29,980 bases of DNA from a virus, in the IMG/VR virus record IMGVR_UViG_3300042895_001173, positions 1-29,980 of that record, one strand, 5' to 3'. The notes under the pieces were generated by a model, which saw only the letters and a program-made list of their open reading frames with translations, had not been told where the DNA came from and made no database searches. Each line of letters starts with the position of its first letter. The stretch's first letter is position 1. Both the position numbers and the translations under genes were made by a program. Shown here one piece after another: positions 3,352 to 28,734 of the stretch.

Positions 3352-3725
3352 TTTACCCAGAAAAAGAGATGTATGGCGTTCTGGAGCCACAACCACCAGA
3401 AGTAAGACTGTCGGCAGAGCCGCTTCTTGCTCTTTTTAGGATTGATGGCTCCGAAAATAGCATTTCGGCTCTAGCAATGCGCTTAGGAACAGAACGCAAC
3501 GCCATCTACAGGTGGATAGAGAACGGCATCAACCTCAGAGTCGCCGAAAACATGGCTGAGAAAATAAACACCCATCCTGCCTTGATTTGGGGTCCTGAAT
3601 ATCACATCGCAACCTACATGGAAGCAAACCGTCAAACCATAATGGCACGTAGAAAACGGGAAAAACTCGTTCTTCGGCGTTCTATTGCGAGAAAGGAAAA
3701 GAGAGATGAAAGAATCACACAATAA
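3348..3725 (+). CDS. Helix-turn-helix DNA-binding protein
   Basis: 125 residues. Residues about 38-70 (ISALAMRLGTERNAIYRWIE, then GINLRVAENMAEKINTHPALIW) form a helix-turn-helix with a following helix, similar to small phage regulators. The C-terminus is very basic (MARRKREKLVLRRSIARKEKR) and may add non-specific DNA contacts. The start ATG overlaps the previous stop (ATGA), and the end overlaps the next gene by about 20 nt. The three genes from 3133 to 3975 therefore form one coupled regulatory operon on the plus strand. Confidence 0.75.
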   Translation: MIYPEKEMYGVLEPQPPEVRLSAEPLLALFRIDGSENSISALAMRLGTERNAIYRWIENGINLRVAENMAEKINTHPALIWGPEYHIATYMEANRQTIMARRKREKLVLRRSIARKEKRDERITQ

Positions 3726-3975
3726 GAAAAAAATTTTCTACAGCCCTGAGCAGACAGCACTAACGCTTAACTTTATTGTTGACTTCACCAAAGAACGTGG
3801 TTATCCACCGTCCGTTAGAGAAGTGGGCGAGAAAATCGGCGTTAGTTCGTCGTCAACTATCCATAAATTCATACGTCAATGCGTTGATGCAGGGTACGTA
3901 GACCTTGATGCACGCATCCCTCGGTCAATAAGAGTTTCCAAGATAGGCAAAAAGTACTTATCTTCGGCTCAATGA
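3706..3975 (+). CDS. LexA-type winged-helix DNA-binding protein without protease domain
   Basis: 89 residues from the ATG at 3706, which has GGAAAAGAGAG upstream. It matches the N-terminal DNA-binding domain of LexA: TLNFIVDFTKERGYPPSVRE, VGEKIGVSSSSTIHKFIRQC, GYVDLDARIPRSIRV. In LexA this domain recognises SOS boxes. Here the S24 autoprotease domain is absent, so it cannot self-cleave in response to DNA damage. It may act as a constitutive repressor of host SOS genes or of phage promoters (inference). It lies at the end of the coupled three-gene operon and converges on the tRNA-Arg gene. Confidence 0.85.
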   Translation: MKESHNKKKIFYSPEQTALTLNFIVDFTKERGYPPSVREVGEKIGVSSSSTIHKFIRQCVDAGYVDLDARIPRSIRVSKIGKKYLSSAQ

Positions 3976-9300: not shown

Positions 9301-12300
9301 GTTGAAAAAATGACAAAAGAATTCCTTGATGCTTTTGACGCGGAGGGTTTTATTCCTTTCAACACCATGAGTGAAATGCATATTGACTCAATAGCCAAAG
9401 CGGCATACAGAAGCATAGGTAACAACTTAAGAAACAGACCACTACCAGAACAACTGGCTGCTGCTCAAAGGTTCACCGACTTAGTACAAGACTATTTAAA
9501 TAACGTAGTTAACTCATCACGCGGGTGGTCTCCATCACGCGCACAAGAGTTTGCTGACCAAATAGCGCTTGAGTTTCCGTACCTAGTAAATGACATGCCT
9601 CCACTAATAGCGGGAACCTATGCAACAGCAACTCGTCAAGAACTGTGGGCAGAGGCAGTATTACTATTCTCTTCACCTGACTCAAAGTTGAAAGCCAAGT
9701 ACCTAACGCCAGAGATAGAAGCGTTTATTGCTTACGCTTTTGGGTTGAAGCCAGACAGAGACCCCAATACTCCATATCAAAAACCTTGGGCATCTCGCAG
9801 TGGCTTCTCTTCTTCTTCACGGGTAAGAAGACTTCATGCAGCAGAGGACAGTATTCCCGACAGAGTCTCTGACAAAGATGACGGGTTAGCAAGCAGAACT
9901 ACTGGAGCATCAACTGCAAAGATGAGTCGTGAAGCCTCTAGTACTTCACGTTTCACTGTTGGTGACTACGACTTTGACATAACCGACGAAGACCTATCTA
10001 CATACGATTGGGATACCGCCTACGACCAGTGGACAACATGGTCGGGTAACTGGCGTATGCGTCACTTATCCTCAGCAATGATGGGTATAGAACAGCAACC
10101 AACCAGGGGTGGCGAAGAGTCATTATCAACCGTCCACGAGATAATGCGTTCGGGTGAACTGTCAAACGCACCAGACCACGTCAAAGAATCGGTTCGTGAA
10201 TCTCTAATCAACACTCACAAGACTATGGAAAAGATATCCATGGGTGAGACTATTAGTGATAGACCCCTCTACAGAGGCTTGGGTTCTGTTCCTGACGATT
10301 CAGAGATACTCATGGCAGAACAAGGCGAGACGATAACATTCCCACTTAGTGCTTTCACTCCAGACAGAAGCATTGCTACAACGTTTGCTGACATGAATGC
10401 CGAGAGTGACAAAAAAGTAATCCTCCAACTCAGAGATGGTGCCCATGTAGCATCTAGCGATTACACGACACAAATAAGAGACCTAGAAAGCGACTGGATA
10501 GAAGTACCTATTGAATCTGTTACTCAGGGAGAATTTACTGTCGTCTCCAAGAGCGAGAAAGACGGGTACACAGTAGTAGAACTGTCGCACTCAAAGACGT
10601 TTGACCCACTAGCAGGAAGAATGGTTCCAACCAATGTTCGTGGTGGTTTTGCTTCTTCCAGCATGAGACCAGAGCGACGGGTATCAGATAGCGCCATCCG
10701 CACATTGACAGACAATATGGACTTCCTTCGTGACAATCCACCAATCGGCAAGGGTGGCAAAGACCTGGACGACCAGTGGGCACAGAAGACAATAGAGAAA
10801 CTACGCAGTGGGGAGATATCCCAAGAAGACGCATTTGACCTAATGAATGTCGTCATTGAGATACTCAACAACGGGTTCAACGAAGACCCAAGCCAGAAAG
10901 AAAACCCAGACGGCAAACTTCTTGCTTACCAAAAACTATCCAAGCGTCTACGCAGGCTCGCTGTCGGCGCTATGGACAAAGATGATATGGAAGACTTCCG
11001 TAGAGAACAAGGCATTGGTCCTACTGCGATTACGGAACCAAAGCCAGGTCCTTATCCTGGCGGTCGCTTTGGTTTCTCGTCTACGACAGCACGGGAAACT
11101 TTGTCTACACGGACAGACCAGCGCATTAGTGACATTGACACACAGGTGGCAGAACTTGAATCCGTCAATGCTCGCCTGACTAGAGCAATAAGTGAACTTG
11201 AAGCCACGGGCAACTGGGAAGGAGTTAAGCATGACGTGTTCATCACCGAAGGCAATGACCCAAAGACTTACAGCAAGGAGCAGTTAGAGAGCAACGGCTG
11301 GTCTGAAATAGTAGTGCAAGACTCAAGAAATGCTCTATCGGCAAGGCAGAAAAAGATAGATGTTCTCAAGAAAGATAGAGACAGTCTTGAAGATAACAAG
11401 AAGCGCCTAACTGGCGACTACCCAGAAACAACAATGCTCATTGAAGAGTTGCTGCTTGACGAGAACAATACCGAGACCCTACGGGCACGGGCGTCAGAGA
11501 TTGACAGTATGAGTCAAGCAGACAGAACAGCAAGATTTACCGACCCCAATGACCCAGAGTCAGTGTATGTGGTTCACTACGGAGCAAGCAGACTAGAAGG
11601 TGGTCAGTTGGACCCTGCTCGTTCACGGGGACAGGTTGGACAGGGAATTGCTGGCAACACTCGTCAGATAAATGACGAAACAGCAAGATACATGGTCGGA
11701 TTGCGTAATGACGCAAGACGAGACCTATCCATCCTTGAGGAAATGAAGCGTCAGATTGAGACTGATGGCGTGATTGACTTTGACGCAATCGCACGAACTG
11801 ACACTAGAGACTCCTTGCGGGCAGGGAGGGCAAGACTACTGCTCGGTCTAAATCGCCGTGACCCAGAACGCTCAACACATACACCAGAAGGCTGGCAGGT
11901 TTCCAATATTGACAGTCGTATCGGTGACGAAAACAGAACCCTGTCTAGGCTTGACAAGGTTGCCGACCAGTTGATTGCAGACGACTATCAATACACGAGC
12001 ACATACAGGGCGTCAGCGCTGCAGGACCTGCTCGGCTCGTACGGGGGAAGGTATGCAGAGGGCGACTCTACTGAATGGGGCGACGATGCAAAACGCTCAA
12101 CAACTACTGGCATACATGTCTTCAAAGTAAAAATAGGTGATAACGCAATTGAGCAAAACAGTGTTGGCGAGACGCACCTTGTTGGCAAACACACTCCAAT
12201 CGCTTCTCTTGTTGTGGACAGCAGTGGAAACGGCGACAATCCTGCTCGTGAAATCTGGAAGGGTTGGCTTGATGCAGTTATTGAACAGGACATCGGTAAG

Positions 12301-26397: not shown

Positions 26398-26610
26398 TCA
26401 GTCCCCGTATTCTTCGTCTAGGGTCAGCGACCCGAGAGCGTTACTTGCTGCTGCGATTTGCTCGTCGGTCCACGGCAGACCCTCGGGCCAGTCCTCTGGT
26501 TTTCCGAACCACCATGATGTCATCTTTCCACTCGGACCAGTCAGGGCCTTGAGGGCTCCTCTTAGTTCTTCTGCCAGTCTTGCGATTTCCGCTACTTGTT
26601 GCTTATCCAT
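26398..26610 (-). CDS. Unknown small protein, leaderless
   Basis: 70 residues. A coiled or helical N-terminus (KQQVAEIARLAEELRGALKA), then SWWFGKPEDWPEGLPWTDEQ, with many Trp, and an acidic end. No family recognised. Starts 6 nt after a conserved-spacer -10. Confidence 0.65.
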   Translation of the reverse strand: MDKQQVAEIARLAEELRGALKALTGPSGKMTSWWFGKPEDWPEGLPWTDEQIAAASNALGSLTLDEEYGD

Positions 26611-26616
26611 AACTCC

Positions 26617-26645
26617 AATATATAGATAGTAAAGGGTAGAAACAA
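26617..26645 (-). promoter_or_regulatory. Conserved-spacer leaderless promoter (copy 7)
   Basis: TTGTTT, spacer CTACCCTTTACTATCTA, TATATT, then GGAGTT and the ATG at 26610. Confidence 0.75.
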
Positions 26646-26670
26646 CCTCACCCCAAACTTTTTTTCAGAA

Positions 26671-26686
26671 TGTTTCACGTGAAACA
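26671..26686. promoter_or_regulatory. parS: parS centromere-type site
   Basis: TGTTTCACGTGAAACA, a perfect 16-bp palindrome identical to the canonical bacterial chromosomal parS bound by ParB. No ParA or ParB gene is seen in the window. Confidence 0.85.
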
Positions 26687-26700
26687 TTAGGCATGCCTAA
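26687..26700. repeat. 14-bp perfect palindrome abutting parS
   Basis: TTAGGCATGCCTAA starts at the base after parS ends. Binding protein unknown. Confidence 0.7.
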
Positions 26701-26727
26701 CAAGCATTACGCAACCTACTAGCGTTA

Positions 26728-26763
26728 CGAAACTGACTGGGTTAGATAATGAAACTGACTAGG
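26728..26763. repeat. Direct repeats GAAACTGACT
   Basis: GAAACTGACTGGGTT and GAAACTGACTAGGTT, 22 nt apart, differing at one base; flanked by CTAG and CGTTACG-type short repeats. Iteron-like. Confidence 0.6.
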
Positions 26764-27144: not shown

Positions 27145-27174
27145 TTGCAGCAAAAATAAAGTTTGTGGTATTCT
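27145..27174 (+). promoter_or_regulatory. Leaderless plus-strand promoter of the 27181 gene
   Basis: TTGCAG, 18-nt spacer, TATTCT, then GCGTTT and the ATG at 27181. The spacer is not of the conserved type. Confidence 0.55.
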
Positions 27175-28394: not shown

Positions 28395-28424
28395 CTAATC
28401 TTTTAACGGTGGCGGAAAGCATTT
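28395..28424. repeat. Dispersed repeat copy C (TAACGGTGGCGGAAAG)
   Basis: CTAATC-TTT-TAACGGTGGCGGAAAG-CATTT. It directly follows, and overlaps by two bases, the stop of the 28734 gene and lies about 99 nt upstream of the 28296 start codon. Confidence 0.8.
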
Positions 28425-28734
28425 AGTCGGCGATTGCCCAGACTCGTGAAGGACGCCCCGGCTTACCGAGTGTGTTGCAGTCGTCAATGACTTCCACTCT
28501 GCCTTCTTCTTCCAAAGACAGCAGACGCTTGGTTGCGTTAGCCTTGTCCATGTCAAGCAGTTCTGCTACGGCAACTGTGCGAGCCTCACCCATTAGGGCT
28601 ACTGCTAGATACACGGCTTCGGTACGAGTCAATTTGTCAAACAAAGCATCACGGAGAGATGGGAAGTTGCTGATAGATGCAACAACCTTTCCATCAACCA
28701 TGAGGTTTGTTCCTGTCATAGTAATGTTGTTCAT
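28423..28734 (-). CDS. Winged-helix DNA-binding protein, leaderless
   Basis: 103 residues from the ATG at 28734, 6 nt after a TATTAT -10. Residues about 30-100 follow a MarR-like winged helix: LTRTEAVYLAVALMGEARTV, AELLDMDKANATKRLLSLEE, then a wing with GRPSRVWAI. The first 30 residues form a beta strand pair. It probably regulates phage or host promoters, and the repeated promoter spacers in this arm are an obvious candidate target (inference). Confidence 0.75.
   Translation of the reverse strand: MNNITMTGTNLMVDGKVVASISNFPSLRDALFDKLTRTEAVYLAVALMGEARTVAVAELLDMDKANATKRLLSLEEEGRVEVIDDCNTLGKPGRPSRVWAIAD

Follow-up and report, generated by a model that had tools for sequence, protein, structure and literature searches.

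What is an exact copy of a bacterial centromere motif doing on the genome of a phage? The ParB-parS complex is the main chromosome segregation mark in many bacteria, and phages are generally assumed to make no use of it except where they carry a parABS system of their own. The locus considered here lies near the end of the window, i.e., the whole stretch of DNA that was analyzed (29,980 bp, GC content 47%), which is a complete virus record and, because its first gene runs past the record end, a fragment of a genome. Our preferred reading, to which we give a probability of about 0.6, is that the site may be an orphan parS that recruits the ParB protein of the host and would serve the segregation or retention of the phage DNA.

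The site and its surroundings

The following features are referred to below (window positions):

26398 to 26610, minus strand: gene for a 70-aa protein with no assigned function, downstream of the site, with 60 bases between
26617 to 26622, minus strand: putative –10 element TATATT, read from the sequence; the transcription start would be the ATG
26640 to 26645, minus strand: putative –35 element TTGTTT in the conserved AGGTTG motif of a candidate leaderless promoter; AGGTTG lies 22 bp from the site
26671 to 26686, no strand: parS-type 16-mer TGTTTCACGTGAAACA, an exact consensus match, centered in a perfect palindrome of 20 bp (26669 to 26688)
26687 to 26700, no strand: second palindrome TTAGGCATGCCTAA, 14 bp, perfect, overlapping the 20-bp palindrome by 2 bp
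26729 to 26738, plus strand: first GAAACTGACT repeat ("iteron"), not conserved
26751 to 26760, plus strand: second GAAACTGACT repeat, not conserved
28423 to 28734, minus strand: gene for a 103-aa winged-helix (TrmB-like) protein, with a weak Pfam match below the cut-off

The sequence-only reading of this DNA had described an exact parS consensus followed at the next base by a perfect 14-bp palindrome. Both are present, and the perfect palindrome around the 16-mer proved longer than reported (20 bp). Its estimate that a chance match would be expected far less than once was also borne out, as base composition predicts 8.6 × 10^–6 exact 16-mers in the window. The 16-mer is the sole match in the window even with three mismatches allowed, a tolerance at which shuffled sequence averages 0.21 matches.

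The window encodes a ribonucleotide reductase, a primase/helicase, a WhiB-type regulator, and a DNA helicase that appears from its sequence to be SNF2-type; one further protein, which we take to be DUF932-like, belongs to a PHROG with no assigned function. A 96-aa protein matching a LexA-type DNA-binding domain is encoded at 3685 to 3975, directly downstream of a small possible HTH protein (a reading, without family match). The WhiB gene presumably points to an actinobacterial host. A helicase relative with 62% identity is binned in an Actinomycetota metagenome-assembled genome (MAG); this is one of six MAG matches in all, and because the other five are in unrelated taxa an actinobacterial host is not proven. 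In the 132-kb relative G019, the final 227 bp repeat the first bases of the record, 99 of them without a break, suggesting a near-complete genome. Its terminase and tail sheath are closest to those of phages of Gordonia, Brevibacterium, and Arthrobacter (best identities, 44% for the terminase and 38% for the sheath). The window virus is probably an actinobacterial-type myovirus, probably virulent, and its hosts are probably lake-dwelling actinobacteria.

Conservation in related phages

A helicase search yielded 60 related loci, all of which were scanned for the 16-mer with up to three mismatches allowed. Fifteen of these loci carry 18 sites (14 distinct after near-identical records were merged), each with no mismatch or one, and any mismatch falls within the central four bases. 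The pattern TGTTTC-N4-GAAACA thus occurs 18 times in the 15 site-bearing loci against 0.02 occurrences expected from composition, and in whole records (those of 40 of the 60 loci) the site was found in 15 of 40 and a reversed control pattern in 0 of 40. Window and relatives accordingly share a 16-bp palindrome of the parS-type consensus TGTTTCACGTGAAACA with few mismatches, in one or two copies per site-bearing record; in G019 a second copy lies within the gene that comes next.

Among loci that include 10 kb of sequence upstream of the helicase, all 12 with at least 76% helicase identity have the site and none of the six with at most 67% identity does. High-identity loci without the site (such as L123, L125, L127, L133, L134, L135, and L166) have less than 3.5 kb of upstream sequence and lie outside this comparison. 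No relative was found that keeps the flanking genes and has lost the site, the case that the sequence-only reading had named as evidence against it; the six site-less relatives are no test of this, since they also lack the window's neighboring genes, a difference in gene content and not the loss of the site alone. None of seven cultured phages sharing the tail sheath has the site, though it was expected there. As these seven isolates and the six distant helicase relatives are without it, the site is not general to such phages.

The proteins encoded downstream of the site in the relatives fall into four groups with no blastp link between them, so the site is not tied to one neighboring gene; in L132, L136, L138, L139, and L141, unrelated small proteins replace the 70-aa protein. 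The site appears to be kept by selection as DNA, independently of any one adjacent gene.

The second palindrome varies among the relatives. TTAGG-type palindromes adjoin the site in the window and in L122, L168, L124, L140, L126, L129, L130, L137, L138, and L139, and a CTTGTAnTGTGCAAC-like element takes this place in L128, L131, L132/L141, and at both sites of L136. Every exact match to the second palindrome in the scanned sequences lies beside a site, and a general dispersed phage operator was rejected for that reason. It was also rejected as a host operator, being found in 1 of 61 genomes of the likely host order, where one match is no evidence; the gene after that match (L419) is presumably an FTR1-type iron permease, as read from its REGLE motif. 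The second palindrome looks like the binding site of another protein, for which the winged-helix protein is a candidate. The GAAACTGACT repeats, which had been counted as iterons of the site region, do exist, but they are not conserved: within 150 bp of the relatives' 18 sites, the pair is present only at L122 and L168, and a single copy at L139.

parS in likely host chromosomes

From the 81 genomes of the likely host order (that of the Actinomycetota MAG) we selected 20. All 20 encode ParB and have parS-like sites (at least 14 of 16 bases) near it, two sites in 19 of them (one contig ends early). The central bases of these sites read ACGG, CCGT, ATAT, or GTGT in 4 of the 20 genomes; the chromosomal parS of likely hosts varies in the same center as the phage sites. 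At the class level, a site with at most one mismatch is present, among the matches listed, in 44 of 60 genomes versus 2 of 60 for the reversed control, and these host sites often vary in the outermost base, unlike those of this phage group. A looser pattern is noisy in the host order (20 of 81 genomes versus 8 of 81 for the reversed control).

Given the identity of sequence, the variants in host chromosomes, and the preference for parS that tested ParB proteins share (PMC7383237, in extract), host ParB likely binds the phage site. The mechanism that we propose would be as follows. Selection would keep a copy of the host centromere motif in the genome of an actinobacterial myovirus that is probably virulent. 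The ParB protein of the host acts as a CTP-dependent clamp; it would be loaded at this single site of the phage DNA, move away from it by sliding, and so link the phage DNA to the ParA and SMC machinery of the host. The most likely benefit would be that the phage DNA is placed within the cell, passed to both daughters, and not lost during a slow or stalled infection, as has been proposed for phi29 and Spo0J. In Corynebacterium, a single parS keeps ParB on about 32 kb of DNA and is enough for the chromosome arms to align (PMC7083940, in extract). The segregation or retention role itself is a guess, which we would place a little short of an even chance.

The adjacent promoter

In the main rival to the ParB reading, the palindrome would control the neighboring leaderless promoter as its operator. 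The protein that binds it would be a phage regulator (e.g., the winged-helix protein encoded at 28423 to 28734) or host ParB in the role of a transcription factor, and a parS role would be secondary or absent. At 17 of 17 sites with a downstream motif, the distance from AGGTTG to ATG is exactly 38 nt. Taking the ATG as +1 places TTG at –35 and, in the window, TATATT at –12 to –7, so that a leaderless promoter, which we call an early gene switch, appears to lie between the site and the 70-aa gene. Six promoter-like motifs (AGGTTG plus an ATG at the leaderless distance) are present on the minus strand of the window between 21052 and 29168, and the AGGTTG motifs may constitute a promoter family of this phage group.

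The distance between AGGTTG and the site, in 13 distinct sites, falls into three classes of 9 to 10, 20 to 22, and 30 to 31 bp, about 10.5 bp apart. None of 20,000 random sets was as regular if the 13 sites are taken as independent, and p is about 0.05 if only the three classes are counted. This set was obtained by merging near-identical records and omits the second L132/L141 site, which has no downstream AGGTTG. A site directly upstream of a promoter, at distances one helical turn apart, suggests transcription control. Moreover, the second palindrome or its substitute adjoins every site that has an AGGTTG promoter, and two nearby genes track the site among 12 site-bearing loci, chosen from the 15 so as to avoid near-identical ones: the winged-helix gene, whose start we set at the ATG 38 nt past an AGGTTG motif (11 of 12 versus 0 of 6 site-less loci), and a 94-aa gene at 27163 (12 of 12 versus 0 of 6), an association that may reflect kinship. 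The winged-helix protein would, in the operator reading, be a candidate binder of the site as well.

Several observations nevertheless leave the operator reading unlikely. The motif equals the parS consensus, its tightly kept center included; the downstream gene changes while the site persists; the second L132/L141 site lies inside a gene with no such promoter following; and of the 12 AGGTTG promoters that G018 and G019 each have, one only is accompanied by the site. Unrelated phages also have the same motif inside portal and other genes. When viral contigs were scanned for the site together with AGGTTG, the matches listed came chiefly from other phages, in many of which the site lies in coding DNA, so that the set of 13 distances was not enlarged.

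A further alternative, rather improbable in our view, shares the recruitment of ParB with the preferred reading and differs in its purpose: the site would draw host ParB and condensin either to interfere with segregation or division in the host or to compact or shield the phage DNA. The evidence for ParB recruitment fits this equally well, and replicated phage genomes would multiply the site. One or two copies per record are few for titration, however, and the earlier suggestion that the phage titrates host ParB is unlikely with that number; yet six copies are found in an inovirus (see below).

Partition genes in this phage group

A search of 22 records, among them that of the window and many fragments, found neither ParA (PF13614) nor the DNA-binding domain HTH_ParB (PF17762). 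The sequence-only reading had noted the lack of ParA and ParB nearby and proposed to search further sequence. For the window its observation holds; a protein whose N-terminal domain is of the ParB type is encoded in five longer relatives. Because the site seemingly comes without matching proteins and the same address is present in other phages, borrowing of the host segregation protein is probable, and the use of a host-type parS without phage ParAB is well supported by its conservation, by the 0 of 22 counts for ParA and HTH_ParB, by the host variants, and by the other phages described below. The proposed state of an extrachromosomal (plasmid) prophage, in contrast, found no support: neither a tyrosine integrase (PF00589) nor ParA or HTH_ParB was detected in the 22 records, many of which are fragments.

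The ParB N-terminal domain (ParB_N, PF02195) was found in 5 of 26 records, in open frames of about 270 codons; in G018 and G019 the protein is encoded about 67 to 70 kb from the site. It is the basis of another reading, in which the site would be the centromere of a phage-encoded partition system located elsewhere in the genome, and PHROGs names the best-matching families of these proteins ParB-like partition proteins. In the three ParB_N proteins examined, however, ParB_N is the sole Pfam match above the cut-off; for one of them, a comparison with solved structures gave ParB and Noc as matches over the N-terminal part only (about residues 13 to 135), and the predicted model is uninformative (mean pLDDT, 51). 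No HTH_ParB and no ParA accompany these proteins, and G020 and G021 have the protein and lack the site. A phage-encoded system is on these grounds very improbable, and the ParB_N protein was rejected as the partner of the site, no DNA-binding domain having been found in it. A phage protein with ParB_N only might touch host ParB rather than DNA. In L185, L187, and L189, such a protein is encoded near a possible RuvC-like resolvase (a reading).

Comparison with known systems

With bacterial chromosomal parS, the site shares an identical 16-bp consensus and the central variants of the likely host order. It differs in being phage borne, in one or two copies, with a second palindrome and a leaderless promoter alongside and no adjacent parAB. 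The chromosomal type would be expected near parAB and oriC; neither ParA nor HTH_ParB was found in the window or in the records of 21 relatives. Since it lies on a phage, we class it as working like parS and not as a chromosomal centromere.

Another parallel is phi29. Meijer et al. reportedly described in 2005, for phi29 and Spo0J, that the retention of a virulent phage genome in spores involves host ParB. We know of no sporulation in the actinobacterial-type host of the present group. The phi29 relative B103 has the exact 16-mer inside gene 15, and HTH_ParB was not found in it; the window's group likewise has a host-type parS and, in the 22 records, neither ParA nor HTH_ParB. For phi29 the proposed use is spore entrapment, and the window's group differs in being a myovirus with an actinobacterial-type host. 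The involvement of host Spo0J in the trapping of the phi29 genome in spores is also described in PMC9437464 (in extract).

RedRock and Miko are mycobacteriophages whose extrachromosomal prophages have their own parABS (PMC7157519, in extract). They resemble the window virus in being actinobacteriophages with centromere-type DNA but encode ParA and ParB, and the parS loci of RedRock, according to the same extract, consist of an 8-bp motif repeated directly eight times, which differs from the host motif. A parABS cassette of the RedRock or P1 type is not apparent in the present group, as neither a ParA-type ATPase nor an HTH-containing ParB was found in the 22 records. Phages are also known to co-opt the host regulators CtrA and Spo0A via binding sites, kept near promoters as here (PMC9437464, in extract); those are classical regulators, while here the host protein would be a partition clamp. 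In Staphylococcus phage Lacachita, partition was likewise proposed from an incomplete gene set, namely, a ParB-like gene without ParA; there the phage gene is the evidence for plasmid-like maintenance, and here it is a bare host-type site (PMC10286716, in extract).

The site in other phages

The exact 16-mer is present in at least 120 viral contig stretches, compared with 33 for TGTTTCAGCTGAAACA and 1 for the reversed palindrome. Among 50,697 phage records, 286 hold it, at 824 places over both strands, i.e., about 412 sites, against a uniform expectation of 0.5. Control palindromes were found in 5, 0, and 0 of these records, the 5 being Erwinia phages of about 243 to 246 kb. As many of the 286 are near-duplicates, the number is not a tally of independent origins. 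A chance origin of the site in the window is virtually nil given its expectation there and these controls, and is already refuted by its conservation across the relatives. The central variant ACGG, common in the window's group, was found in only 4 of the 50,697 records.

The commonest names among the 286 are Listeria (87), Microbacterium (49), Arthrobacter (29), and Gordonia (25). Ten names listed account for 258 records and the remaining 28 are spread over 17 further names, so that phages of Escherichia and Salmonella can be a handful at most. Salmonella lacks ParABS. E. coli also lacks it (PMC7383237, in extract). HTH_ParB was found in none of 49 site-bearing viral contigs, which we picked, mostly for length, from 120 such records and examined together with one MAG as the positive control, nor in any of 10 site-bearing isolates tested.

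Many of the sites lie within open frames, which translate them into VSRET or FHVK; the remaining frame has a stop. One family of portal-like genes (a reading), chosen because one member had the site, was explored by gathering 25 homologues through peptide patterns that exclude the site, so that only the homologues were gathered blind. GTT TCA CGT GAA is invariant in all 24 homologues that cover the site (of 25 loci), and the whole 16-mer is kept in 19 of the 24, with changes at positions 1, 15, or 16. Among the 19 distinct genes (of 25), the site codons form the longest invariant run and supply four of the five invariant codons ending in A or T. Such invariance implies that the constraint acts on the DNA. 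A blastn search of the portal-gene region against isolates gave no matches.

It is rather probable, in our estimate, that an orphan host parS is a widespread and repeatedly evolved phage strategy, with host ParB (plus SMC) as the common factor for positioning and retention. The strategy would extend over tailed phages, filamentous phages, and microviruses, with sites that are intergenic or hidden by fixed codons, and would be unrelated to lysogeny or sporulation. The orphan parS looks like a common, little-noticed phage feature; no report of an orphan host-type parS across phages was found among the titles and abstracts listed from an open-licence library. If the reading is true, host ParB and condensin would take part in many infections, those by virulent phages included, and the persistence of "lytic" phages in dividing cells (carrier state, pseudolysogeny) would become testable with a one-motif marker. 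Cultured site-bearing phages are recorded on strains of Bacillus subtilis, Arthrobacter, Microbacterium, and Gordonia, which already allows the idea to be tested.

Individual cases differ in how the site is placed. The inovirus bajarodino virus 6 (L414; PQ006149.1, 5910 bp), a small filamentous phage, has six exact parS 16-mers, five intergenic and one near a gene start according to the gene table, and HTH_ParB was not found in it. Ranunculus and Rizwana, isolates among the best matches to the window's primase, have the motif inside a portal gene, as parS at 1501 in Ranunculus (L415) and as parS or the ACGG variant at 9762 in Rizwana (H228). In Gordonia phage Woes (L411), the parS copies at 2701 and 3122 center perfect palindromes of 36 and 30 bp, which look like terminators or extended sites. 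Finally, in another phage group an exact parS lies closely upstream of a short possible leaderless gene (L033, position 7759; L060, position 10534).
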